A model generated the notes under the pieces. It made no database searches. It saw only the letters and a program-made list of their open reading frames with translations, and was not told the DNA's origin. Shown here in pieces: positions 31,099-45,419 of a stretch of 46,088 nucleotides of DNA. Position numbers and translations under genes: made by a program. Positions within the stretch are counted from its first letter, which is position 1. Each line of letters begins with the position of its first letter. The DNA is from Candidatus Vecturithrix granuli (GTDB lineage Bacteria; Moduliflexota; Moduliflexia; Moduliflexales; Moduliflexaceae): assembly GCA_000739535.1 (NCBI GenBank), contig DF820471.1:297044-343131 (forward strand), written 5' to 3'.

Positions 31099-32649
31099 TT
31101 ATCTCTGCTGTTCCAGGCGGTGTACGGTCTTTCTGGATTCGTCTTTAAGGGCTTCGTAGGTTTTGACATATTGTTCCACATAGAAGCGGTACTCTTCGTG
31201 TCTGGACATGTCAGGGGCGATCACTTTCTCAATCTTGACCATCTGACCGGCGGCTTCTTCGATTGAAGCATAGATGCCGGCCCCGACGGTTGCCAGAATC
31301 GCACAGCCCAGGACGACGGCCTGCTGCTCTTTCGGAATCGTGACCTGTTTGCCAGTGACATCGGCGTGAATCTGCATCCAGAGATCGCTTTTGCTCGGCC
31401 CGCCGCAGATGACTAATTCGTTGATCGAGACGCCTTCCTGTTCCATCCTGTCAAGAATCACGCTTGTCCCATAAGCCACGCCTTCCATGATCGCTCGAAA
31501 TAGATAGGCGGGCGTATGGCGCAAGGTCAGGCCGCGAATCACGCCGCGCGAGGTCGGATCGGTCCAGGGAGTACGGTTGCCCTGCCAATGATCCAAGACG
31601 ATCAATCCTTCGGAGCCAGGCGGAATTTCCTGGGCCATTGAGCCAAGCAGATCATACACATCAACGCCTTTCTGTCGGGCTTCTTGCTGAAGATTCCCGT
31701 TCACAAAATGATCTTTAAACCACTTGAGAATTGAGCCGGTTGAGACCTGTCCCCCTTCCACCAGGTACTTGCCGGGCAGCACGGCATCCGGATAGGCTCC
31801 GAAAATGCCGGGCGCGTGAATTTCTTTATCCAACAATCCGATGTGAACGTGAGATGAGCCGGTAATTAAGGAGAGTTGTCCGGGATGGATCGCATTCAGT
31901 CCTAAGAGGCCGATAAACGCATCGCCGCCGCCGGCCGCAATCGGAATGCCGGTCTTCAATCCGGTTTTTTCAGCGATCTCCTGGCGTAAAGTTCCGGCCA
32001 CCTCACCGAGGCGCATCACCCTGGACGGCAGTTTCTCAAATACATCCCCTAATCCGACGGCTTCGTAAAGACTAATTGGCAATCCTCCCTGCGTCGCATC
32101 GTAAAACCATCTGGTCGAGGCTGTATCAATATTTATTGTTCGTTCGCCGGTCAGCGTATAAATCAGCCAGTCGGTCAGATCAAAAATCGTGCATGCCTTT
32201 GCAAATATTTCAGGTTCATGGCGTTTAATCCATAAGACTTTGCACGGAAACCACTCGGCCGAGACGTTGCCAAAGCCGACGTATTTCAGAGCCGGATCAT
32301 TGGTAGCCGCAAGCTCTTCGGCTTCCTGATGCGCGCGCACATCCATCCAGATCAACGCATCGCGCAACGGCCTGCCGGCAGAATCCAGAAACACAACCGT
32401 GCATGTGGTGCCGTCAACACTCAGGCCTTCGATGACATTCGGGTTTAGCCCGCTTTTCGCGATTGCCTGATTGATGGCCTTGATCATCGCCTGTTCCCAT
32501 TCGATCACCGATTCTTCGGCCCAACCCGGATGTTTATGAGTCGTTTTATATTCGCTTGCGCCAAAACTGATGCAGGCCCCTTTTTCGTCAAAAATCGCCG
32601 CGCGAACGCTTTCAGTCCCGGCGTCTATTCCTAACACATATCTCGACAT
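31099..32649 (-). CDS. FGGY-family carbohydrate kinase (second of pair)
   Basis: A 516-residue sugar kinase of the hexokinase/actin fold. N-terminal phosphate loop VLGIDAGTESVRAAIF; substrate lobe with LIWMDVRAHQEAEEL (about 98); catalytic-base region IAAGGGDAFIGLLG (about 238); and second-domain motif LVICGGPSKSDLWMQIHADV (about 413), typical of FGGY enzymes. Sequence style suggests a pentulose or polyol kinase rather than glycerol kinase. Its start overlaps the end of the upstream kinase by 19 bp, with AAGGAGG lying inside that gene, so the two are cotranscribed. The exact substrate is not determined. Confidence 0.9.
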   Translation of the reverse strand: MSRYVLGIDAGTESVRAAIFDEKGACISFGASEYKTTHKHPGWAEESVIEWEQAMIKAINQAIAKSGLNPNVIEGLSVDGTTCTVVFLDSAGRPLRDALIWMDVRAHQEAEELAATNDPALKYVGFGNVSAEWFPCKVLWIKRHEPEIFAKACTIFDLTDWLIYTLTGERTINIDTASTRWFYDATQGGLPISLYEAVGLGDVFEKLPSRVMRLGEVAGTLRQEIAEKTGLKTGIPIAAGGGDAFIGLLGLNAIHPGQLSLITGSSHVHIGLLDKEIHAPGIFGAYPDAVLPGKYLVEGGQVSTGSILKWFKDHFVNGNLQQEARQKGVDVYDLLGSMAQEIPPGSEGLIVLDHWQGNRTPWTDPTSRGVIRGLTLRHTPAYLFRAIMEGVAYGTSVILDRMEQEGVSINELVICGGPSKSDLWMQIHADVTGKQVTIPKEQQAVVLGCAILATVGAGIYASIEEAAGQMVKIEKVIAPDMSRHEEYRFYVEQYVKTYEALKDESRKTVHRLEQQR

Positions 32650-34181
32650 AGAATCCCTCCTTGTTTCAAATCATAGAGTTTTGCAAAGTCTGACTGTAAA
32701 TGGATGTAAAGATCTTTATAGATGGCAAACATTTCCTGATAGCCTTGAACATGTTGAGGGCGCGGTTCATAGATTGTTCGTATTTTGATAAACTGCCTTA
32801 TCGTTTGCACAAGATCAGGGAAAAGCCCAATCCCATGACCTGCTAACACGATATCGCCAAAAGGCGCGCCAATGGCGGTTTCAGGAATTAGGATTGGACT
32901 ATTCGTGACGTCGGCTTTGATCTGATTCCATACCGCGCTTTTTGCGCCGCCTCCCACAGAGCGAATTTCCGTGACCGTCATGCCCCCTTCAGTGAACACG
33001 TCTAAGTTATGCTTCAGGCCAAAGGCTGTGCCTTCGAACAGGGACTTGATCAGATGCGCCCGGGTGGTATCAACGGATAATCCAAAGAACACTCCTCTGG
33101 CTTTATTATCCCAGATTGGCGACCGTTCTCCTGCCAGATAGGGCAGAAAAATGATCCCCGACGGGCCATCGGCAAGTTTTTCAACTTCGCGATTCATGAC
33201 CTCGTAAGGATCAATTCCAAAAAGAGCCGCGGCATTTTGTTCTGCCAATCCTAATTGATTCTTGAACCATTTCAAACTTGCGCCAGTTGAACTCATGGGG
33301 CCAATCAAGAGAAACGTATCTTGAACTGAATGCGGAAAAAAGGTCAGACGGGCGTCTGTGATGGGATGCGTCAGGGCAGCCATAATCACGGTTGAAGTAC
33401 CGGTCATTTCACAGGTTGTTCCGTCACGGATGGCCCCGGCTTCAAGGGCGGCGGCGGTTGCATCTACCATACCTGCAATGACAGGCGTACCAGCTTTTAG
33501 TTCGGTTTCTTTGGCGGCTGTTTGAGTCACTTCCCCAATCACGGCCGAACACTCGGAAACCGGAGGAAACACATCGAGCGGGAGTTCCAATGATGCAAAC
33601 AGATTCTCAGCCCATTGCCCTGTCTGAATATCATACAACAGGGTTAATCCGGCCTGCGAGCGATCAAAGGTATATTGGTCGGTCAGCTTGAGCACAATAT
33701 ACCCATTCGCTTGCAATACTTTGTATGTTTTCGCGTAGAGATCAGGTTTCTTTTGCTTTAACCACAGGAGTTCCGGCAGAACATAATAGGAGTTGATCGC
33801 ATTGCCTGTGGTGTGAAAGATCAGTTCCTCCCCGATGGTTTCGCGCAGAAAGGCGCAAGCGTCATCGGCGCGCTGATCCATCCAAATCAGAGCAGGATGC
33901 ACCGGAAGTCCCTTTCTGTCAACGGCAAGCATGGTCGGTCCTTGCGAACTAACGGCGATCGCAGCAATATCGCTGCTCTGAATGCGCGTTTTTTCCAGGA
34001 TTTCCCGGATTGTCAGCACCACCGCCTGCCACCAATCGTCCGGCGCCTGTTCAGCCGCATTTTGATAGGGATAATAGGTGTCATACTCCGCGCTGGCCTG
34101 GTCGATCAATAGGCCTTCATCTGAAAAAATCGCAGACTTTACGGCAGTTGTGCCGACATCAATTCCTAACAAATACGGCAT
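32631..34181 (-). CDS. FGGY-family carbohydrate kinase, xylulokinase-like
   Basis: A 516-residue FGGY kinase: LLGIDVGTTAVKSAIFSDEG at the start; LIWMDQRADD (about 97); VIAGMVDATAAALEAG (about 234) with the catalytic-base Asp; GTSTVIMA (about 262); LPYLAGERSPIWDNKARGVF (about 349) and IRSVGGGAKSAVWNQIKADV (about 404). The ERSPIWD motif is common in xylulokinases. Compared with the neighbour at 31099 it is a clear paralog, not a recent copy. CAGGAG precedes ATG 34181. It is the first kinase of the pair and follows a hairpin at 34329. Confidence 0.9.
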   Translation of the reverse strand: MPYLLGIDVGTTAVKSAIFSDEGLLIDQASAEYDTYYPYQNAAEQAPDDWWQAVVLTIREILEKTRIQSSDIAAIAVSSQGPTMLAVDRKGLPVHPALIWMDQRADDACAFLRETIGEELIFHTTGNAINSYYVLPELLWLKQKKPDLYAKTYKVLQANGYIVLKLTDQYTFDRSQAGLTLLYDIQTGQWAENLFASLELPLDVFPPVSECSAVIGEVTQTAAKETELKAGTPVIAGMVDATAAALEAGAIRDGTTCEMTGTSTVIMAALTHPITDARLTFFPHSVQDTFLLIGPMSSTGASLKWFKNQLGLAEQNAAALFGIDPYEVMNREVEKLADGPSGIIFLPYLAGERSPIWDNKARGVFFGLSVDTTRAHLIKSLFEGTAFGLKHNLDVFTEGGMTVTEIRSVGGGAKSAVWNQIKADVTNSPILIPETAIGAPFGDIVLAGHGIGLFPDLVQTIRQFIKIRTIYEPRPQHVQGYQEMFAIYKDLYIHLQSDFAKLYDLKQGGILCRDMC

Positions 34182-34328: not shown

Positions 34329-34361
34329 AGAAACCGGGTTTTTGGGAAAAACCCGGTTTCT
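34329..34361. terminator. AGAAACCGGGTTTTT hairpin repeat, copy 1
   Basis: Perfect 15-bp stem with GGG loop between AraM and the kinase pair. The same sequence type recurs at 35986-36019. As a bidirectional hairpin with A/T ends it could act as terminator or processing site, giving different levels along the operon. Confidence 0.65.
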
Positions 34362-34445: not shown

Positions 34446-35798
34446 TCAATATTCACTCACAACTTCATCCGTAATTTCTTCAAGCCAGCCAAGCGTATCG
34501 GCCGCGTGCAGCACCGTGTATTTGCTGCGGACTTCTTTAGCATTCAGCAGGGTTTCCCGTAATAATGGGCGATCAACCTCAATCTCTTGCGGCAGAATAC
34601 TGGCGCCGACCGATTGTTGAATGTCAAATACCCTCTGAAATGTCGGTGTGATGGCCTGAAGCCCCTTGATTTCTTGCCAGGCGGCTTGCAACTTTTCAAT
34701 CTGCCACTGCTGCTCTTCCCAGGAGAGATAGATCGAACGGGCGACTTCAACCACACCTTCGGCCGCTCTTCCGAGATTGCGGCGAATCGTGGCTTCTATG
34801 TCTTCCAAAGAGTGTTTCCGCGCGCGGACCGCTGCCAGATTAATATCAAAAGGATTTCTGGCAAAGAATTTTTCATAGAACTTAGACATCACGCCGGTCG
34901 CAACGCCCACTTTTGTGCCGTGCAGGTGCGGGGTTTTCTGTTCCAAAAAGGCTTTCATCTCCCAATAGTGCGAGAGGCTGTGTTCCGAACCGGAAGCCGG
35001 GCGAGAATTACCAACCACAAGCATAGCTATGCCCGAAAGGATTAATCCTTCCATCAGACGCGCCATAATCTCAGGCTCGCCCTGTTTGATTCCGGCGATC
35101 TGCTCAACACACATTCTGACCACGCCGTCAATCAGTTCGGCAAAGTAGTCACAATAGTACTCGCCGGTGATGATCTGACTCAATTTCCAATCAACTCTGG
35201 AAGTCAATTTTCCCAGCATATCGCTGAAGCCGGATGCGGTGAGTTCGTAGGGCGCCCGGCAGAATACATCTACATCCGCAATAATCGCATGAGGATGGGT
35301 TGAAATGATCGTCTTTTTAAATCCGTCTTGCAGCATTGGCGCGCCTGATGAGGCATAGCCATCCATGGAGGCTGCCGTTGGCACAGAGACAAACGGGATG
35401 CCAGTGCGGGAACTGATATAACGGATCAAATCCGTGAGGCTGCCTGAACCGACGACCAGAAGAAACGATGTATCAGCCTCCAGATCGAGCATCACTTTCC
35501 CGATAGCGTATTCATCCGGTTTCACCAGTTCGCGGGTGGGAAACAGCGAGAGCTTGGGAAGATAAGTTCCATTGTGCAGTTTTTCCATCACCTGCTCTCC
35601 GGCGGCCTGGTAGGTGTTCAGATCCGCAATCACCACGCATTTTTTGCCCAGATTCAGGCGGCGCAGAACGTCCTCAAGATCCTCAAGTGCCCCCTGCCTG
35701 ACAACAACTTCTTGAATGGGAACGGCATGTTTTTTGCCGCATACACACATAAACTCTTGATGAACAAGTCGTCCATCAACAAATTTGAAATGTTCCAT
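34446..35798 (-). CDS. AraM-like sn-glycerol-1-phosphate dehydrogenase
   Basis: A 450-residue member of the glycerol dehydrogenase superfamily. The NAD loop VVGSGSLTDLIRYIS lies at about 116-130, followed by PFVSVPTAASMDGYASSGAP (about 136-155), diagnostic of the AraM/EgsA branch. Metal ligands appear as Asp in SGFSDMLGKLT, His in ASGSEHSLSHYWE (about 268) and His in HLHGTKVGVATG (about 291). The enzyme would reduce dihydroxyacetone phosphate to sn-glycerol-1-phosphate. It is longer than AraM of Bacillus (about 390-400) because of its N- and C-terminal parts. An HAD-IIA phosphatase lies upstream, as AraL precedes AraM in the Bacillus ara operon. Confidence 0.88.
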   Translation of the reverse strand: MEHFKFVDGRLVHQEFMCVCGKKHAVPIQEVVVRQGALEDLEDVLRRLNLGKKCVVIADLNTYQAAGEQVMEKLHNGTYLPKLSLFPTRELVKPDEYAIGKVMLDLEADTSFLLVVGSGSLTDLIRYISSRTGIPFVSVPTAASMDGYASSGAPMLQDGFKKTIISTHPHAIIADVDVFCRAPYELTASGFSDMLGKLTSRVDWKLSQIITGEYYCDYFAELIDGVVRMCVEQIAGIKQGEPEIMARLMEGLILSGIAMLVVGNSRPASGSEHSLSHYWEMKAFLEQKTPHLHGTKVGVATGVMSKFYEKFFARNPFDINLAAVRARKHSLEDIEATIRRNLGRAAEGVVEVARSIYLSWEEQQWQIEKLQAAWQEIKGLQAITPTFQRVFDIQQSVGASILPQEIEVDRPLLRETLLNAKEVRSKYTVLHAADTLGWLEEITDEVVSEY

Positions 35799-35827: not shown

Positions 35828-35888
35828 CGTTCCCTGAGCGAAGTCGAAGGGAACGGTGAGCGGCTCGTTTCGACTTCGCTCAACGAGC
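35828..35888. repeat. GAGCGAAGTCGAAGG repeat, copy 1
   Basis: GTTCCCTGAGCGAAGTCGAA is answered by TTCGACTTCGCTCAACGAGC, with an inner CCCT/AGGG pairing. Copies occur at 39173-39230 (diverged) and 43039-43102. It lies just upstream of the AraM start. Confidence 0.8.
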
Positions 35889-35985: not shown

Positions 35986-36019
35986 AGAAACCGGGTTTTT
36001 TCGGAAAAACCCGGTTTCT
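35986..36019. terminator. AGAAACCGGGTTTTT hairpin repeat, copy 2
   Basis: Arms AGAAACCGGGTTTTT and AAAAACCCGGTTTCT with a 4-base loop, 15 bp past the stop of the HAD phosphatase on the minus strand. Confidence 0.65.
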
Positions 36020-36033
36020 GATGTACAAAGAAA

Positions 36034-36825
36034 TTATTCAAAATACGCGCTGATGTCGCCAATTGTGTTCAAAACAAAATCCGCTGCGCCGTTCCAGGCG
36101 TCATACATCTCTCGCGTGGTTTCACCGCTCAAGACCAGGATGGACACGATGCCGGCGTTGATGCCGGTTTGAATATCCGTATATAAACGATCTCCGACAA
36201 TGGCGACTTCGTCACGGTGATACGGGTAGAGTTCGAATAATGCATCAATAATCGGCTGATAGGGTTTTCCGATAATCACATCCGGCCGTCGCTCCGTGCT
36301 GGTTGCAATCAGTTCGATCATTGCGCCCGTATCAGGAATCGGGCCGTTTTCTGTCGGGCAATTAATGTCCGGATGAGTCGCAATATAGGTTTTGCCTTTT
36401 CGAATCCAATAGCACGCATTTTGCAGTTTTTGATAGGTGAGGGTTTTATCAAACCCAAGCAGCACAATATCCGGCTCATCCTGCACAAGATTGATGTCCG
36501 CCTCTTGTAATTCATCTTCCATAAAAGGCGTGCCCAGAACATAAATCCTGGCGTCAGCATAGTGCTTTTTCAGGTAAATAATGGTGGCGGTGGTGGAAGA
36601 AAACACATCCGCTGGGGTGGTCGCAAACCCCATCCCGCTGATTTTCTCAGCATAATAGCGTCGGCTTGCTGATGAATTATTGGTCAAAAAAAGATATTGT
36701 TTGCCCCGCTCTTTCAGGGAATTCATGAAGGACTGGGACCAGGGAAACAAATTCGGCCCCAGATAGAATGTGCCATCAAGATCGATCAGGAATAATTTGA
36801 CGTTTTGTAAACTCTTCGTAGTCAT
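36034..36825 (-). CDS. HAD-IIA sugar-phosphate phosphatase, AraL/NagD-like
   Basis: A 263-residue HAD hydrolase with motif I FLIDLDGTFYLG (nucleophile and acid Asp, about 12-23), motif II LFLTNNSS (about 46), motif III Lys in VIIGKPYQP (about 186) and motif IV VAIVGDRLYTDIQTGINAGI (about 210-229). The IIA cap carries IYVLGTPFMEDEL and DIVLLGFDKTLTY. Relatives (NagD, AraL, glycerol-phosphate or nitrophenyl phosphatases) dephosphorylate small sugar and polyol phosphates. Its stop is 200 bp upstream of AraM in the same direction. Its start lies 28 bp after the big HTH gene, across a perfect palindrome. Confidence 0.9.
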   Translation of the reverse strand: MTTKSLQNVKLFLIDLDGTFYLGPNLFPWSQSFMNSLKERGKQYLFLTNNSSASRRYYAEKISGMGFATTPADVFSSTTATIIYLKKHYADARIYVLGTPFMEDELQEADINLVQDEPDIVLLGFDKTLTYQKLQNACYWIRKGKTYIATHPDINCPTENGPIPDTGAMIELIATSTERRPDVIIGKPYQPIIDALFELYPYHRDEVAIVGDRLYTDIQTGINAGIVSILVLSGETTREMYDAWNGAADFVLNTIGDISAYFE

Positions 36826-36835
36826 TTCACCTAAG

Positions 36836-36870
36836 TTAACAATTGATAATTGTCAATTATCAATTGTTAA
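36836..36870. repeat. Perfect 35-bp palindrome, overlapping the regulator stop codon
   Basis: TTAACAATTGATAATTG, a single T, then CAATTATCAATTGTTAA: 17-bp arms with perfect complementarity. The stop of the minus-strand regulator gene (36853-36855) lies at the centre, so the last residues (LTIDN) are encoded by one arm. It could form a hairpin that ends or splits the regulator-phosphatase transcript. Confidence 0.85.
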
Positions 36871-39099
36871 TTCCTCAAGCCATGTGATCAAATTGGCAGA
36901 ATCTTTGAATTGCGGCGGGCATGTCGCCAAAAGATTCCGGTCAATGTATGCCATTAATTTTTCCGCTAATTGCTTGTCATGCAGGATAATTCCGCCGCAA
37001 TCTCCAGCCATGACGGTTTTTTCCAGAATCACCCATTCGCCGTTCATCACTTCCACGTTCACCGGGCCGATCTCCGGTTGTTGAATAAGTTCTACGGTCA
37101 TCTTGCCCGGGTATTTCAGCAGCAGATCGTGAAGATAGCGGAAATGCTGCCTGATCCATTCCCGGTGAAAGGTGTATGTCTTATATTGTCCGGTCTCCCA
37201 GTACTCCTCACAGACATTTTGGGGAATAATCAGACGAATACGGGTAATATCCTGTAATAACGCCTGAAAGAGAATTTGGCGGGTTCGCATGGAACTACGC
37301 GGATCCCAGGGCGCAATATCCGGCGGAATCGTCATCAATGGGAGATGATGACTCAGCATAAAAATTTCTTGCGCCACTTGTTCATGGGTATAGACTTCTC
37401 GAATAAAGGCTTCCGTATCCAGGTAACTCGCCTGGTCAATTAATTCGCACATAAAGGGACAGAGATGCTGTTCTGCAACATTCGCATCTAATAACGCTTT
37501 CAACGGTTCTGCGACCAGAAAGTCAACCACATTCTGCCGGCCGTTTTCATTATCGGTGCGCCACCGGGGATCAATAGCTTTCCAGCGAGCATGAAATTCG
37601 TGGCGGAGTTGATAGACCACATCCGGATGATCAGTCCAGGCTCTGACAAGCAGATCGTCGCGTTTAAACGGCGGTTCATACTGAGCGCCCGGGGGATCAA
37701 ACGACAAAAAGGCCGTGTCGCCGCTGACGGTCATCCGAATAAGATATTCCTGGTCAGCCAGCGCAAAATGAAAATTCGGATTGCGTTTCAGAGCACGCAA
37801 CATTCCGATAATTTGTTTTTTCAGCAATTCCGCTTCAAGAACATTGCTCTGACTAGTCAGACTGGTCAGAGCAAGATTTCTGAAAATTTGTTGAAATTCC
37901 TTTTTCAAAAATCCCCGTTCATGAATCGAGCGATCTTTTCCGCTTTCAATGCGCTTTTCCAGAACCAGCACGCGCTCCTGATGCTGAGTGACAAAGGTTT
38001 CAATCATTTCATCGGAGACCCCTGAAACCTCCAGCAGCAAGCGAATAAGCTCTACGGGACGGTAGCGGCCGGAAAAGGATGATTTGATTAACAGTTCTTC
38101 GGTTTTGAGATTGCACTTTTCAACATCAATCAGTTTTTGAAGCCCTGGAGTGACAGAAAATTTGCCCGGTGAGGCATTGGTTTGCACGAGCGGTTTGCGG
38201 ATGTCCTGAGGGCCTAATAAGTATTCGAGATACTGGATCACTATCGCCAGTTCTGCCGCTTGACCGGGTTGAGCCGCATCTACCAGCACAGTCCGTATCC
38301 AGTAACGATTATCTAATACCGGCCGCGCTTCGATAAACCCCACATCCTCAATGACAAGATATTCGGATAAATGCTGGCCATAGGGAATCTCATACAAAAA
38401 ACAATTCGACGTGCCGATGTATTGCACCAAAAAGTCTAAAATGACTGTGATTTCTTTGGCAATATCTCCGGCCCAGAGATGCAGAATTTGAAAAGGAGAG
38501 TCCACCCAGAGAAAACTCCGCAAGATATCGCGCAATTCTTCGCGGTCACGATTGAAATTGTCCTCCAATAAATCATGATGAAACCAGGTAATGAAAATTC
38601 TTCGGCCCTTGCATGAGCTTTTTTGAGCTTTTTTGAGCAGTTTAATTGCGTTGACAATAAAGGCATGATGATCGCCCTCAACAAAATCAGCGTGCAAGCG
38701 ATTACTTTCTAAATCCTCCGGCTGCGCTTTCTGGTCTTTGAGGACAAGTCCTCTGGTTTGCACCCCGTGTTTCAGTCGCTCAAAGAGATTTCCTTCTTCT
38801 TTAAATTCATCAATTAAAGAGGCTAACAGGCCGCTCCTTTCTTCCTGATAGTTCAAATGCTGGCGATTATACACGTCAATGAGACGTTGTACGTCGAGTT
38901 CAGACACATTGAACTGTCGAAGCGCATCGGTGAGTTTCAAAAGTGTTTTGTGGGCCGGAGGTTTGCGATTCGATTGTTTCAGGCTGCTCAAATAGCTTGA
39001 GGTAATATGCGCTTCCTGCGCAAGTTCTTTGAGGCTGAACACCTTTTCTTGTTTGGCGTGTTCGATGATTTCACTCAACACGCGCGCGAATTCACTCAT
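36853..39099 (-). CDS. Giant XRE-type HTH protein with unknown sensory region
   Basis: A 748-residue protein. Residues about 1-70 form a Cro/CI-type HTH (FSLKELAQEAHITSSYLSSL, about 20-39). The remaining ~650 residues match no family I recognise. A mixed alpha/beta region at about 130-320 contains RRIFITWFHHDLLEDNF and HLSEYLVIEDVGFIEARPVL. A second region at about 440-540 contains EYLIRMTVSGDTAFLSFDPP and LRHEFHARWKAIDPRW. The last quarter has IRLIIPQNVCEEYWETGQYK and VELIQQPEIGPVNVEVMNGE. No kinase, GGDEF, periplasmic-binding or nuclease motifs are visible and no membrane segment. It heads the minus-strand cluster and is divergent from the sugar transporter. A sugar-phosphate-sensing regulator is plausible. 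Confidence 0.75.
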   Translation of the reverse strand: MSEFARVLSEIIEHAKQEKVFSLKELAQEAHITSSYLSSLKQSNRKPPAHKTLLKLTDALRQFNVSELDVQRLIDVYNRQHLNYQEERSGLLASLIDEFKEEGNLFERLKHGVQTRGLVLKDQKAQPEDLESNRLHADFVEGDHHAFIVNAIKLLKKAQKSSCKGRRIFITWFHHDLLEDNFNRDREELRDILRSFLWVDSPFQILHLWAGDIAKEITVILDFLVQYIGTSNCFLYEIPYGQHLSEYLVIEDVGFIEARPVLDNRYWIRTVLVDAAQPGQAAELAIVIQYLEYLLGPQDIRKPLVQTNASPGKFSVTPGLQKLIDVEKCNLKTEELLIKSSFSGRYRPVELIRLLLEVSGVSDEMIETFVTQHQERVLVLEKRIESGKDRSIHERGFLKKEFQQIFRNLALTSLTSQSNVLEAELLKKQIIGMLRALKRNPNFHFALADQEYLIRMTVSGDTAFLSFDPPGAQYEPPFKRDDLLVRAWTDHPDVVYQLRHEFHARWKAIDPRWRTDNENGRQNVVDFLVAEPLKALLDANVAEQHLCPFMCELIDQASYLDTEAFIREVYTHEQVAQEIFMLSHHLPLMTIPPDIAPWDPRSSMRTRQILFQALLQDITRIRLIIPQNVCEEYWETGQYKTYTFHREWIRQHFRYLHDLLLKYPGKMTVELIQQPEIGPVNVEVMNGEWVILEKTVMAGDCGGIILHDKQLAEKLMAYIDRNLLATCPPQFKDSANLITWLEELTIDN

Positions 39100-39703
39100 G
39101 CAACCATCCTGTCCTCAGGCAAACAGCGGCAAAGCCGTCAATTCGAGGAATATAGGCATCCTGAATCATGCGTGTCTTGACTTCGCTCGACAACCGCCCG
39201 GTCACTGAGCGGAGTCGAAGTGACATGACACAACTGATTTAGGATCGCTATAGGTTATCAATGACTCAGAATCGGATTATTTGAGAGAAGTTAAAGAATG
39301 ATCTCTCTTAAATTGTCAAGTTAAAAAATACGTATTAACAATATTTCAATATAAAAAAAATCAAAAAAATAGTGTATAAATTATTAATTAATTAAATAAA
39401 ATAAAATATGATAATATTTTTTTTAATACACTTTTATATTGATAAAAATTTTTACGAAAAATATCTTTTGGCGATATATAATTTTTTAATATTAAAACTT
39501 GACAAAAGAGAAAGTTGCCATGTATGCCTGCCGTTAATCTCAATTGAGAGGTCCATTATTTAAGAAAAAAGGGGGGATGCCTGGGAGATATTGTCGTGTC
39601 AGCATTTACTGAAGTACCTGCTTAAGTGGTGGAAAAGAAGAGGAATTTTGTGAATCGAAATTCCATAATAGAGATTGTCGAAGGTAATTAGAGGAGGGCT
39701 CTT
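39100..39703. other. Divergent intergenic region, very A+T-rich
   Basis: It separates the HTH gene from the transporter operon. It holds a diverged GAGCGAAGTCGAAG repeat (39173-39230), then about 200 bp of near-pure A/T (39300-39500) with the dyad CAATATAAAA...TTTTATATTG and AGTGTAT...ATACACT. TTGACA at 39499-39504 with a TATGCC-like -10 some 18 bp on could start the transporter transcript. A/T-rich upstream DNA is expected of UP elements or nucleoid-protein binding. No gene is seen. Confidence 0.6.
39173..39230. repeat. GAGCGAAGTCGAAGG repeat, diverged copy
   Basis: TTGACTTCGCTCGACAACCG pairs with GTCACTGAGCGGAGTCGAAG in inverted orientation. The same repeat family as 35828-35888 and 43039-43102, here in the opposite arm order. 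Confidence 0.65.
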
Positions 39704-41059
39704 ATGTTGAAAAAGTTCACGTGCTTAGTATTGTCAGTGTTGTTTTTGGTAGTGATTCTGGGGACTGTGCCTGTATCCGCAGCGTTTGATTGGAAGGCTC
39801 ACAGCGGCACAGAAATTAAGCTGTTGCTCAATAAGCATCCGTATGCCGATGCCTTATTGGCGCATTTGAATGAATTCACGGAACTCACCGGCATTACGGT
39901 GACGTATGATGTGTTTCCTGAAGACGAATATTTCGATAAAGTGACCGTGTCGCTTTCCAGTAAATCGCCGGAATATTCCGCTTTCATGACGGGCGCATAC
40001 CAGGTGTGGCAATATGCTCCTCCAGGATTCATGGAAGATCTGCGACCCTATATGGATGATCCTGAAAAGACGAATCCGGAATGGGATGAGGCTGACATTT
40101 ATGAAAACTTGCTGTCTTCGTTAGCCTGGAGCTTGAAGCCCGGCGATCCACTTGGCGCAGAGGGCGCAAAACAGTGGGCATTGCCCTGGGGCTTTGAAAC
40201 CAATACCTTGATTTATCGCAAAGATATTTTCGATAAACATGGATTGGTTCCGCCGAAAGATCTGCCTGAACTGATTGAACTCTGTAAAAAACTCAAGGAA
40301 TTGGAACCCGATATGTATCCTATTGCTGTGCGTGGGACACGTTCCTGGGCGACCATCCATCCAGGATTCCTGTCGTGTTATAATGGTTATGGCCTCAAAG
40401 ATTATGACCCCTTCCCCAAACCGGCGATGAATTCTCCGAAAGCCGTTGAGATGACAAAGCTGTGGGTAGATATGGTCAAAAATTACGGCCCCAAAGCCTG
40501 GACATCCTATATCTGGTACGAAGTAGGAAATGACCTGGGACAGGGACGCGCCTGCATGATTTACGACGCTGACATCCTGGGATACTTCCAGAATCAGACG
40601 GATGCTTCTCCGGTTTCAGGAAAACTGGCATGGGCCCCTGGCCCTGGCGAACCTGGCGCAGCTCCGGCTCCGAATATGTGGATCTGGTCGCTGAGTATGA
40701 ATGCCAATTCGGAAACCAAAGATGCAGCCTGGTATTTCTTGCAATGGGCCACTGGCAAAGACTTCTTGTTAAAAGCGGTGCGCGGCAATTTCTCCTTAGT
40801 TGACCCTGTCCGGAAGTCTGTGTGGGCCGATCCTGAGTTCCAGAAGAAACTCGAGGATTTTACCGATTATTATAAGACATTCCAGACAATTATTGCTAAT
40901 TGCAAAGTCTATTTCACTCCGCAACCCCTCTTCTTCGAGACAACAACAGAGTGGGCGGCAACCCTGCACGAGATCTACAACGGAAAAGACGCACAACAGG
41001 CTCTTGATGAATTGGTAAAACGCCTGGAAAGTACGCTTCAACGCGCAGGGTATAAATAA
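39704..41059 (+). CDS. ABC sugar transporter solute-binding protein (family 1)
   Basis: A 451-residue secreted protein with signal peptide (MLKKFTCLVLSVLFLVVILG, cleavage near ASA-like VSA at residue 26). It follows the family-1 binding protein plan: ITVTYDVFPEDEYFDKVTVS (about 62-81), where such proteins fold the N-lobe, then AMNSPKAVEMTKLWVDMVKN and ACMIYDADILGYFQ. GAGGAGG precedes ATG 39704. It is the first gene of a five-gene importer operon. The preferred sugar or polyol is unknown. Confidence 0.9.
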   Translation: MLKKFTCLVLSVLFLVVILGTVPVSAAFDWKAHSGTEIKLLLNKHPYADALLAHLNEFTELTGITVTYDVFPEDEYFDKVTVSLSSKSPEYSAFMTGAYQVWQYAPPGFMEDLRPYMDDPEKTNPEWDEADIYENLLSSLAWSLKPGDPLGAEGAKQWALPWGFETNTLIYRKDIFDKHGLVPPKDLPELIELCKKLKELEPDMYPIAVRGTRSWATIHPGFLSCYNGYGLKDYDPFPKPAMNSPKAVEMTKLWVDMVKNYGPKAWTSYIWYEVGNDLGQGRACMIYDADILGYFQNQTDASPVSGKLAWAPGPGEPGAAPAPNMWIWSLSMNANSETKDAAWYFLQWATGKDFLLKAVRGNFSLVDPVRKSVWADPEFQKKLEDFTDYYKTFQTIIANCKVYFTPQPLFFETTTEWAATLHEIYNGKDAQQALDELVKRLESTLQRAGYK

Positions 41060-41139: not shown

Positions 41140-42096
41140 ATGACGCCAACAAAAGCAGCAACAAAGATGAACTCATCAAAAAACACAAATAATAATTCAT
41201 CTGCGAAAATCATCACCAAAGGGGTGAGCAGCCGGAATCCCTATCTGCCATATTTGATGATTCTACCCGCCCTTGCCCTGACAGTGCCGGTTCTCGTGCC
41301 TTTTTTCCAGAGTATTTACTACTCCATGACCACCTATTCTCTGACCAACCCGGTCAAAAATTTTATCTGGTTTGAGAATTATAAGTGGCTGCTCACCTCG
41401 CCGGATTTTTGGAATTCCGTCCGAGTGTCTTTTGTCTATACGTTTACGGCCGTAGGTACAGAACTGTTATTAGGGTTATTAATTGCCGTTCTTCTGAATC
41501 AAGAGATCTTTTTGGCAAAAATTCTGCGGCCCCTGCTGCTGATGCCCTTGATGATTGCCCCGATTATCGGCACGCTGATGTGGAAGCTGATGATGAGTCC
41601 GGAGTATGGCGTGCTCAATTATTTTCTCTCATTTTTTGGCGCAAGAGATTTCCAATGGGCCTCGGCCGCGAATACCGCCATGTTTTCCGTGGTCTTGATT
41701 GACGTGTGGATGTTTACACCCTTTATTGCGTTACTCCTGCTGGCCGGACTGCGTTCCATGCCGGCCCCGCCATTTGAAGCGGCGATGGTGGACGGCGCGT
41801 CAAAATGGTTTATTTTTAAGAACCTGACGATTCCGATGTTAATGCCATTTATCATCATTGCGGTCGTGTTTCGCATTATTGATTCGGTGCGCCAGTTTGA
41901 TATTATTTTTGGTATGACCAAGGGCGGCCCCGGGCAAACGCTCATGAACTTTCAGGTCTCGGCTTATACAAACGCCTTCACCTATACCAGGGTGGCAGAC
42001 GGCGCCGCGATCATGTTGATCAACTGGCTGATTATCTACCTGATCAGCATGTTTCTCGTGAAATTCTGGCGTAAAAGTCAGGATCGTTTATCTTAA
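41140..42096 (+). CDS. ABC sugar transporter permease (MalF/UgpA type)
   Basis: A 318-residue inner-membrane permease with six helices after a hydrophilic, Lys/Asn-rich N-terminus of about 28 residues. The EAA loop reads FEAAMVDGASKWFIFKNLTI (about 208-227) and contacts the ATPase. The usual N-x-x-x-F-T sugar-permease pattern appears in MTKGGPGQTLMN near 263. ATG 41140 is weakly served by GGAAGGA. It forms the channel with the next gene. Confidence 0.92.
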   Translation: MTPTKAATKMNSSKNTNNNSSAKIITKGVSSRNPYLPYLMILPALALTVPVLVPFFQSIYYSMTTYSLTNPVKNFIWFENYKWLLTSPDFWNSVRVSFVYTFTAVGTELLLGLLIAVLLNQEIFLAKILRPLLLMPLMIAPIIGTLMWKLMMSPEYGVLNYFLSFFGARDFQWASAANTAMFSVVLIDVWMFTPFIALLLLAGLRSMPAPPFEAAMVDGASKWFIFKNLTIPMLMPFIIIAVVFRIIDSVRQFDIIFGMTKGGPGQTLMNFQVSAYTNAFTYTRVADGAAIMLINWLIIYLISMFLVKFWRKSQDRLS

Positions 42097-42114
42097 ACGG
42101 AGGGATGACACATC

Positions 42115-42990
42115 ATGGCAACAACCGAATCTCAGACTCAGAGAACATTCTTTCAAAAGCTCATTATCAATCTCTTATTACTGGCCTGTTTCGTGTTTCT
42201 GCTGTTTCCCGTGTTTTGGGTGGCAACGATGGCCTTCAAAACCCATGAAGATATTTTGACCTGGCCTCCCAAGTTTTTCTTTGAGCCCACGCTGGAAAAT
42301 TTTCGTAATATTACCACAGCGGTACGAAAGGCAAGAGTAGGCGCAGTGAGCAGCGATTTTTTGAAAGGATTTGGCAACAGTCTTGTCGTAACCATATCAG
42401 CTTTAGCAATCTCGTTGGTTACCGGAATTCCTGCGGCTTATGCCCTGGGACGGTTTCGCTTTAAAGGCAAAGATGACATTGCCTTCACCTTTCTTTCTTT
42501 TCGTTTTGCTCCTGAACTCCTGGTCATCATACCGATTTATCTGATCTTTCAACAGATCGGGTTATATGATACCTATATCGGACTGATCTGGGTGTATCAA
42601 TTGATTACCATGCCAATGGTGGTCTGGATTTTAATGAGTTATTTTGAGGATATTTCCGTTGAATTGGAACAAGCCAGTATGGTTGATGGCTTTCCGCCGT
42701 TCCGGACGTTTTTGCGCGTGATCCTGCCGCTTGCGAAACCAGGGATTGCCGCGTCATCGCTGTTAGCCTTTATTTACGCCTGGAATAACTTTATTTTTGC
42801 GTTGATCCTGGGCTCGGCCAAAGTCCAGCCGGTTACGGTTTCGGCTTTAAAATTTATCACGGCTGAAAAATTACGTTATGGCGATATTGCCGCGGCTTGC
42901 ATTCTGGCGGCCATTCCTATCTTTATTTTATCCGTGTATGCACAGCGCTATATGGTGCGCGGGCTGAGTTTAGGGGCAGTGAAAAAATAG
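42115..42990 (+). CDS. ABC sugar transporter permease (MalG/UgpE type)
   Basis: A 291-residue permease with six helices. Typical MalG-family features are FPVFWVATMAFKTHEDI near residue 26, the EAA loop VELEQASMVDGFPPFRTFLR (about 182-201) and AWNNFIFALIL near 223. GGAGGGATGACACATC precedes ATG 42115, 18 bp after the MalF-type gene. It completes the channel. Confidence 0.93.
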   Translation: MATTESQTQRTFFQKLIINLLLLACFVFLLFPVFWVATMAFKTHEDILTWPPKFFFEPTLENFRNITTAVRKARVGAVSSDFLKGFGNSLVVTISALAISLVTGIPAAYALGRFRFKGKDDIAFTFLSFRFAPELLVIIPIYLIFQQIGLYDTYIGLIWVYQLITMPMVVWILMSYFEDISVELEQASMVDGFPPFRTFLRVILPLAKPGIAASSLLAFIYAWNNFIFALILGSAKVQPVTVSALKFITAEKLRYGDIAAACILAAIPIFILSVYAQRYMVRGLSLGAVKK

Positions 42991-43038
42991 GATTGAAAAA
43001 TGAACGTGAAACGTGAAATATGGTTAATGATTGACGAC

Positions 43039-43102
43039 GTTCCCTGAGCGAAGTCGAAGGGAACATGTCCTTGTTCGTTTCGACTTCGCTCAACGAGCGA
43101 GC
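43039..43102. repeat. GAGCGAAGTCGAAGG repeat, copy 2
   Basis: CGTTCCCTGAGCGAAGTCGA through CGACTTCGCTCAACGAGCGA, almost identical to 35828-35888. It lies between the second permease and the first ATPase, so it is transcribed within the operon. A reading frame through it (from 43031) is repeat-derived and not used as the ATPase start. Flanking imperfect dyad ACGTGAAATATGG / CCGTATTTTTTACGT is also present. Confidence 0.8.
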
Positions 43103-43159
43103 ATAATGCGTTGGCTTCATCACGACCGTATTTTTTACGTTTCATGCTTTCATGAAATT

Positions 43160-44278
43160 ATGGCAGTTGTTGCATTACGAAATGTTGTCAAAACCTATGG
43201 CGATGTCACGGCCTTACACGGACTTGATTTCGAAACAAAAGAGGGAGAGTTCTTTGTCCTGTTAGGGCCTTCGGGGGCCGGAAAAACCACGACGCTCAAG
43301 GTAATTGCCGGATTAGAAGATATTGACTCAGGCGAAGTCGTGTTTGATGGCAAAGTGGTGAATACAGTGCCCACCAATCTAAGACCGGTAGGCATGGCCT
43401 TTGAAAGTTACGCCTTATATCCGCATTTTACCGTGTTTGAAAACATTGCCAATCCCTTGCGCGCTCCCGGAAAAACTTATACGGAAACCGAGATCAAAGA
43501 TCGAGTGCAGAAAATGGCGAAAATGCTCAAAATCGAGCACTTATTAACACGGCATCCGGGCGAGTTATCGGGCGGACAAAAACAACGCGTGTCATTGGGA
43601 CGCACCATGGTGCGCGAACCTTCCGTTTATCTTTTAGATGAACCCTTGACGCATGTTGACGCCAAAATTAGATTTGATCTGCGTATCCAGTTTCACCGTC
43701 TGGAAGAATTACAGCAGAGCACCACCGTGTATGTGACGCACGATTATGTCGAAGCCCTGTCGCTCGGCGACCGCATCGGGATTATCGATCAGGGGCGCAT
43801 CGTTCAGATTGGCGAACCAAAACAGATTTATTACCATCCGCGCAATATTTTTGTCGCCCACCTGGTCGGGCAGCCCTCCATTAATCTGATGAATGCCCAG
43901 CTTGATGCTGATGACCACAATGCACATCTTCATGTTCCGCAAGGCGGTTTTAGCATTCCTCTTTCTCCAGAGCGGTTTCACGCCTTGAAACAGGTAAATG
44001 CTCCGCGTGACCTGATTGTCGGTATTCGTCCTCGCGATCTGATGACGTTCACAACTACCCCTGAGACAGCAACTGCTCAGGTGAAAAGCGATGTGTTTGA
44101 ACCCTTCGGATCATTCGGTCTGCTCTCGATTCTTGCCCGCGACATCTACCTGAAACTCTTGACCGATCCGGAGCAGGAAGTTGAACCCGATATTCCCCTG
44201 GGATTAAATTTCAGAGAAGATCGTCTCATCTTTTTTGATCCTACGACCGAAAACAATTTATTATGGAGTGAAAATTGA
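43160..44278 (+). CDS. MalK/UgpC-type ABC ATPase, Q-loop Glu variant (first)
   Basis: A 372-residue ATPase with C-terminal regulatory OB-type domain (about 240-372). Start ATG 43160 (MAVVALRNVVKTYGD) matches family N-termini; a longer frame from 43031 derives from the repeat. Walker A is GPSGAGKTT, signature LSGGQKQRVSLGR, Walker B VYLLDEPLTHVD and H-loop VYVTHDYVEA. The Q-loop reads MAFESYALYPHFT, with Glu (GAA) in place of the conserved Gln that contacts the permease and senses ATP. It runs into the second ATPase with a one-base gap (TGAG-ATG). Likely one half of a heterodimer. Confidence 0.92.
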   Translation: MAVVALRNVVKTYGDVTALHGLDFETKEGEFFVLLGPSGAGKTTTLKVIAGLEDIDSGEVVFDGKVVNTVPTNLRPVGMAFESYALYPHFTVFENIANPLRAPGKTYTETEIKDRVQKMAKMLKIEHLLTRHPGELSGGQKQRVSLGRTMVREPSVYLLDEPLTHVDAKIRFDLRIQFHRLEELQQSTTVYVTHDYVEALSLGDRIGIIDQGRIVQIGEPKQIYYHPRNIFVAHLVGQPSINLMNAQLDADDHNAHLHVPQGGFSIPLSPERFHALKQVNAPRDLIVGIRPRDLMTFTTTPETATAQVKSDVFEPFGSFGLLSILARDIYLKLLTDPEQEVEPDIPLGLNFREDRLIFFDPTTENNLLWSEN

Positions 44279-44279
44279 G

Positions 44280-45419
44280 ATGGCTGAAGTTGTCCTTCGT
44301 AACGTGAAAAAAATTTATCAGTCCAGACAAAAGAAGAAAAAAGAAGATGTTCTGGCTGTGAAGAATTTGAATCTGACCATTCAAGACGGAGAATTTCTGG
44401 CCCTGTTAGGTCCGTCGGGATGTGGTAAAACCACGACGCTGAGAATGATTGTGGGCTTAGAAAGCATCACGGAAGGCGAAATTCTGATTGACGGAAAGGT
44501 CGTCAATTCCTGGAATCCGGCGCAGCGCAATGTGGCCATGGCTTTCGAAACGTATGCGCTCTATACCCATCTGACTGTCCGCGAGAATCTCGGCCTGTGT
44601 TTGAAAGCGAAAAACGTTCAGCCCCAGGAGATCGAGAAACAGGTCAACCACATCGCCGAAATTCTGAAAATTACGGATATTCTTAATGTCAGACCCTCTC
44701 ATCTCTCAGGTGGCCAGCAGCAACGCGTATCGCTGGGCAGAGCTTTGATTCGTCGGCCGAGCGTCACCATGCTCGATGAACCGTTATCGCACCTGGATGC
44801 GGCTCTACGCCTGGAGACTCGGATTGAAATTAAACGTATCCACCAACGGGTCAAGGGCACATTTATCTATGTGACCCATGATCAGTTGGAAGCCCTGGCG
44901 CTTGCCGATCGAGTCGCGGTCATGAATTTTGCCGAGTTGCAGCAAGTCGGCACGCGCAAGGAACTCTTTGAACAACCGGCGAATGTGTTTGTCGCCGATT
45001 TTGTTGGCGAACCACCGATTAATTTGTATTATCAGAGCACCCTTGAGGAACAAGACGGGGAATTATACGCTGTCACGCCTCAAGGCGCTTATCGCTTTCA
45101 ACTGGTGCCGCAAAAGAGGCGTCTGCTTGAAAATCATCAAAAGGAAAAAGTCACTTTAGGCATTCGTCCCCAACATATCGGTCTGGAACAGAAGCCCGGC
45201 TATGTTCCGTTATCGGGAAAGGGTGCGCTGTTTGAATTTCTCGGAGAATACGGCTACCTGACCGTTCACAATCAAGGCTTAGATTTGAGCTTGCTCACTC
45301 CAGCCGATATTGAGTCGCATAGCGAACAGATCGACATTTTTTATGATCCGCACAAAGTGCTGCTCTTCGACTCAGAAAGCGGGGAAAATCTGGCATTGAA
45401 TAGAACAAAGAACATATAG
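44280..45419 (+). CDS. MalK/UgpC-type ABC ATPase, Q-loop Glu variant (second)
   Basis: A 379-residue ATPase with C-terminal OB-type domain. ATG 44280 starts MAEVVLRNVKKIYQSRQKKK, with a Lys/Glu-rich insertion (QKKKKEDV) near the A-loop. Walker A is GPSGCGKTT, signature LSGGQQQRVSLGR, Walker B VTMLDEPLSHLDA and H-loop IYVTHDQLEA. The Q-loop reads MAFETYALYTHLT, again with Glu for Gln. Tandem ATPase genes after two permeases recall the glycerol importer GlpSTPQV of rhizobia. It ends the transporter operon. Confidence 0.92.
   Translation: MAEVVLRNVKKIYQSRQKKKKEDVLAVKNLNLTIQDGEFLALLGPSGCGKTTTLRMIVGLESITEGEILIDGKVVNSWNPAQRNVAMAFETYALYTHLTVRENLGLCLKAKNVQPQEIEKQVNHIAEILKITDILNVRPSHLSGGQQQRVSLGRALIRRPSVTMLDEPLSHLDAALRLETRIEIKRIHQRVKGTFIYVTHDQLEALALADRVAVMNFAELQQVGTRKELFEQPANVFVADFVGEPPINLYYQSTLEEQDGELYAVTPQGAYRFQLVPQKRRLLENHQKEKVTLGIRPQHIGLEQKPGYVPLSGKGALFEFLGEYGYLTVHNQGLDLSLLTPADIESHSEQIDIFYDPHKVLLFDSESGENLALNRTKNI

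Follow-up and report, generated by a model that had tools for sequence, protein, structure and literature searches.

An XRE-headed protein with an orphan body, a putative regulator of polyol and glycerol uptake in the KSB3 lineage

The 748-aa protein encoded at positions 36853..39099 (minus strand) of the window, i.e. the whole stretch of 46,088 nucleotides of Candidatus Vecturithrix granuli DNA that was analyzed, is the product of a real gene and a probable regulator, confined to its lineage, whose body has no detectable relatives. Its genomic setting points to glycerol and polyols, a narrower focus than the sugar link considered earlier. In our reading, to which we assign a probability of about 0.7, it is a one-component regulator, ancestrally of glycerol uptake and, in the case of the window copy, of the uptake of another polyol, which senses either the substrate or its phosphate. 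If true, a protein specific to this lineage, whose sensor domain is of obscure descent, would have taken the place of the usual glycerol/polyol regulators. The presence of relatives at glycerol uptake genes also provides a concrete ligand hypothesis for an otherwise orphan protein.

The host is a sludge bacterium of the uncultured KSB3 lineage (Moduliflexota). Its genome, UASB270 (Candidatus Vecturithrix granuli, spelled “Vecturathrix” in the published table), comprises 21 contigs and 8,384,694 bases (PMC4312070). These bacteria form filaments, have relatives that cause bulking in wastewater reactors and have been noted for an unusual wealth of environmental sensing (PMC4312070).

The regulator gene and its DNA-binding domain

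The open reading frame (36853-39099, minus strand) begins with an ATG codon and is intact over 748 codons. Two relatives were found, both full-length and free of internal stops: a paralog in the same genome (59% identity) and a copy in the KSB3 MAG DOLJORAL78_50_49 (52%). Full-length conservation in a second genome, together with the same-genome paralog, excludes a chance frame, so this is a true gene, and the 748-residue protein described in the first-pass annotation is confirmed.

Resemblance to known proteins is confined to residues 1-80, which include an XRE/Cro-C1 helix-turn-helix domain (HTH; residues 1-65, 38905..39099, minus strand) that is 69% identical across all three family members. 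By sequence the assignment is weak: Pfam HTH_19 was matched with E=0.004 and 17.5 bits (below the gathering cut-off of 30.2), HTH_3 with 12.2 bits (cut-off 23), and the NCBIfam SlrR model with E=6e-4. The fold supports the XRE-type head that had been proposed. The AlphaFold2 model is confident only over residues 1-80 (pLDDT about 60-81), which form a five-helix HTH fold (helices 3-17, 23-29, 34-40, 50-62 and 67-85), for which Foldseek returned SinR, ClgR, DdrO and C-proteins with a probability of about 1.0, but with E-values of at least 0.02. SinR, SlrR, ClgR and DdrO share this class of N-terminal DNA-binding domain, as judged by profile and fold. They are, however, small proteins, whereas the HTH of the 748-aa protein carries a body of ~620 residues without detectable relatives.

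The body of the protein

Searches of Pfam, NCBIfam, PHROGs, PADLOC and PDB sequences gave no useful match to the ~620-residue body. A body profile run against about 775 sampled genomes (391 of one class, which we took for Clostridia, and 385 mixed genomes) recovered no relative besides the three family members, and the body is thus unclassified, as it had been on first inspection. Matches of the profile within this sample were chance fragments, e.g. a mannitol-1-phosphate dehydrogenase-like ORF. A DUF5867 match present in all three members (E=0.03, 24 residues) was dismissed as too weak; this family was found in none of 335 genomes, but in none of the controls either, so its absence is not established. 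HTH matches in sister-family genomes belonged to a different 500-aa regulator, and other HTH matches with long frames were unrelated to the 748-aa protein.

Within the body, conservation peaks at residues 205-238 (HLWAGDI...QYIGTS...; 38386..38487, minus strand), with 74% three-way identity. A second conserved block, residues 441-530 (SFDPPG...KRDDLLVRAWT.HPDVVYQLR; 37510..37779, minus strand), has 63% identity and no database match. The C-terminal part, residues 601-748 (36856..37299, minus strand), is variable (31% three-way identity) and may possibly be a specificity region.

AlphaFold2 models of the full-length protein and of residues 134-304 were poor (mean pLDDT 38.7 and 44.7, respectively), as expected with an input of only two sequences, from which the paralog was left out. 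Foldseek with the domain model returned Rag/longin-type matches with E above 0.01, which were treated as noise.

TrmB-type sugar regulators have a PLD-like sensor. It is conceivable, but rather unlikely, that a known sensor fold, PLD-like or other, makes up the body in highly diverged form, with an unchanged regulatory role; the protein would then be an XRE counterpart of those regulators. The alternating helix-strand order of residues 144-295 in the low-confidence models is compatible with such a fold. However, no PLD or TrmB family was detected in the body up to E=10 in Pfam or NCBIfam, the HxKx4D (HKD) motif is absent from the 748-aa protein, and Foldseek searches with the (poor) body models gave no PLD-like match. 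The suggestion had originated from E-Y-L segments, which were read as a sign of internal duplication. EYL does occur three times (residues 246, 292 and 451), and at least three copies were obtained in 0.1% of shuffles for this tripeptide, chosen after the fact. Yet both relatives have EFL in place of the third copy, and no internal repeat emerged when the 748-aa protein was compared with itself by BLAST or by profile. A literature search on PLD-like regulators yielded nothing useful. A PLD-like fold of the body is at present unsupported, and body models of this quality are too poor to settle the fold.

It also appears quite improbable that the body is an enzyme or a phosphoryl-transfer switch of the trigger-enzyme type, which modifies, or is modified by, a component of the pathway. 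For a domain that simply binds a ligand the body would be large, and many polar residues are invariant in the conserved blocks 205-238 and 441-530, but no enzyme family, PTS or kinase signature was detected in it by Pfam, NCBIfam and other profile searches.

Genomic context in the window

The regulator gene is divergent from a five-gene polyol-type ABC importer, across a gap of 604 bp, and so faces the importer as originally claimed. The importer genes, all on the plus strand, encode a substrate-binding protein (SBP_bac_1; 39704..41059), two permeases (BPD_transp_1, UgpA-like and MalG-like; 41140..42990, i.e. 41140-42096 and 42115-42990) and two UgpC-like ATPases (ABC_tran and OB_MalK; 43031..45419, i.e. 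43031-44278 and 44235-45419). Among solved structures, the binding protein is closest to 4rya, titled sorbitol-binding, followed by 5iai (“sugar ABC transporter”).

On the minus strand, the first gene after the regulator (27 bp gap) encodes a HAD-IIA phosphatase (36034..36825), identified by a profile match. Next come genes encoding a glycerol-1-phosphate dehydrogenase (G1PDH)-like protein (34446..35798; Fe-ADH_2 E=4e-32, G1PDH model 213 bits, below the cut-off of 413) and two FGGY carbohydrate kinases, xylulokinase-like (32631..34181) and ribulokinase-like (31099..32649). The regulator gene had been placed at the head of a kinase cluster; the kinase genes do follow, but its immediate neighbor is the phosphatase gene. 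Moreover, perfect palindromes occur in the 235-bp gap that precedes the G1PDH-like gene and in the 264-bp gap that precedes the first kinase gene, so a single transcript from the regulator to the kinase genes is uncertain.

The Bacillus subtilis ara operon contains araL, araM, araN-P-Q and araB. A comparable set of functions lies near the window copy (HAD-IIA phosphatase, G1PDH-like protein, importer and FGGY kinase), but the window locus has two kinases and an XRE-headed regulator, and arabinose is not claimed as its substrate.

Relatives at glycerol import and glycerol kinase genes

In contig scans of the genome collection, the MAG copy was the sole relative outside the host genome, and the regulator is so far known from one bacterial family of the KSB3 lineage. 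Two sister-family genomes contain neither the regulator nor a GlpV-type protein or close GlpK.

The paralog gene is divergent from a complete glpS-glpT-glpP-glpQ-DUF2160-glpV importer set, in which the DUF2160-like frame owes its name to its place and its similarity to the Azospirillum gene order rather than to a profile. The binding protein of this locus shares 73-75% identity with Azospirillum proteins. The matching gene of A. lipoferum is set in the same gene order, with glpD on one side and glpK on the other, and a DeoR-type regulator gene lies upstream. We take the paralog-locus importer to be a glycerol transporter of the GlpSTPQV type. The gene name is used for glycerol transport (PMC4597393), and a 2012 work cited in PMC11962113 is taken to concern this type of importer. 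The MAG copy is located 7 bp upstream of a glycerol kinase gene (glpK) and is divergent from an importer ATPase gene 76% identical to its counterpart at the paralog locus, shortly before the end of the contig. A point against the proposed role is that the main glpK of the host genome is not adjacent to the regulator.

Since both relatives occur at glycerol import or glycerol kinase genes, a regulator sensing the imported substrate or its product gains support, and uptake or phosphorylation of glycerol or a polyol is the theme common to all three loci. The earlier proposal that the protein senses a sugar or a phosphorylated product of it is therefore kept in its outline, with glycerol or a polyol, as indicated by the survey of these neighborhoods, in place of the sugar.

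It is highly improbable that the protein is another XRE-headed protein, e.g. of a defence system or mobile element, standing beside the importer by chance: the PADLOC HTH_VI and capH models match it weakly, but within the HTH only, divergence from importer genes holds for every one of the three members and two of them lie directly upstream of a metabolic gene, and while viral and phage searches recovered no relative, the plasmid search gave one match, limited to the HTH. As the family has three members only, shared ancestry may account for part of the conservation in position.

In almost every segment, the window copy is the most distant of the three, and the paralog and the MAG copy resemble each other most. 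This pattern, taken from segment comparisons, is consistent with a duplication before the split of the two genera, and the paralog and MAG loci are probably orthologous. In the KSB3 MAG, pieces of a window-type importer occur in a row (L076:8290-9390, contig C72 of G001), i.e. the end of the binding protein (79% identity), the start of permease 1 and the end of permease 2; a window-type regulator was not found in this MAG. The fragments fit gene decay, with joint loss of the regulator, or could be a misassembly. A second GlpV-type binding protein (56% identical) is encoded at L077:8669-10393 (contig C21 of G000), with no ABC permease or ATPase gene within the stretch read.

The divergent promoter region

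The intergenic region between the regulator and importer genes (39100..39703) is the probable site of regulation. Comparison of promoter layouts distinguished two facing -35-like boxes, CTTGACAA, one on the regulator side (39313..39320, minus strand) and one on the importer side (39498..39505, plus strand), around a core of 87% AT. Two facing CTTGACA boxes around a core of 80-88% AT are present in all three intergenic regions of the family. CTTGACA also occurs at other likely promoters of the host genome, where the AT content of other facing pairs is 57-65%.

Beside the importer-side box lies a perfect palindrome, TTTTAATATTAAAA (39484..39497), and none of 60 shuffles produced an element as similar among the three loci as a 22-nt element at this box. 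A candidate operator pattern derived from the promoters of the paralog and the MAG copy proved not to be specific, since in a genome search it matched one unrelated promoter and missed the window copy. Designation of the palindrome or the 22-nt element as a candidate operator is speculative.

Proposed mode of action and comparison with known regulators

We propose that the gene encodes a cytoplasmic one-component transcriptional regulator, whose N-terminal XRE-type HTH would bind the AT-rich divergent promoter region. The body would bind a small molecule, for which the imported polyol and its phosphorylated product are the likeliest candidates, and this binding would raise expression of the importer, by either derepression or activation. 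It would also tune the regulator's own transcript, probably including the HAD phosphatase gene. The ancestral role would have been the control of glycerol import (GlpSTPQV) and glycerol kinase, while the window copy would be a paralog re-tuned to another polyol.

DeoR proteins have a different HTH and a sugar-phosphate-binding domain. The 748-aa protein is like DeoR-type (GlpR-like) regulators in position and presumed task, as a DeoR gene stands at the equivalent A. lipoferum glycerol locus, but it differs from them in matching no DeoR profile in Pfam or NCBIfam. With TrmB-type regulators it would share the proposed logic, i.e. a one-component sensor of a transported carbohydrate encoded beside an ABC importer. 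TrmB-type proteins, however, have another class of HTH, and the 748-aa protein gives neither sequence nor structural evidence of their sensor domain. We only tentatively consider that the body is a new sensor fold of one KSB3 family, and that this regulator replaced DeoR-type glycerol control before a duplication gave rise to a copy re-tuned to a second polyol.

Other features of the window

A G1PDH-like protein (34446-35798) is encoded here in a bacterium, next to genes for a HAD phosphatase and FGGY kinases, a set that recalls the Bacillus ara enzymes. The G1PDH-like gene is bracketed by a perfect 15-nt inverted repeat in two copies, AGAAACCGGGTTTTT / AAAAACCCGGTTTCT (34329-34361 and 35986-36019), which is either a terminator or a dispersed palindromic repeat. 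Another dispersed palindromic repeat, TTCGACTTCGCTCA, was identified at 35835-35882, 39206-39219 and 43045-43092. At the start of the first ATPase frame it is read through as the peptide FPERSRREH...RFDFAQRA, so the true start probably lies downstream of the one annotated at 43031; an ABC exporter frame in L009 opens with a similar peptide.
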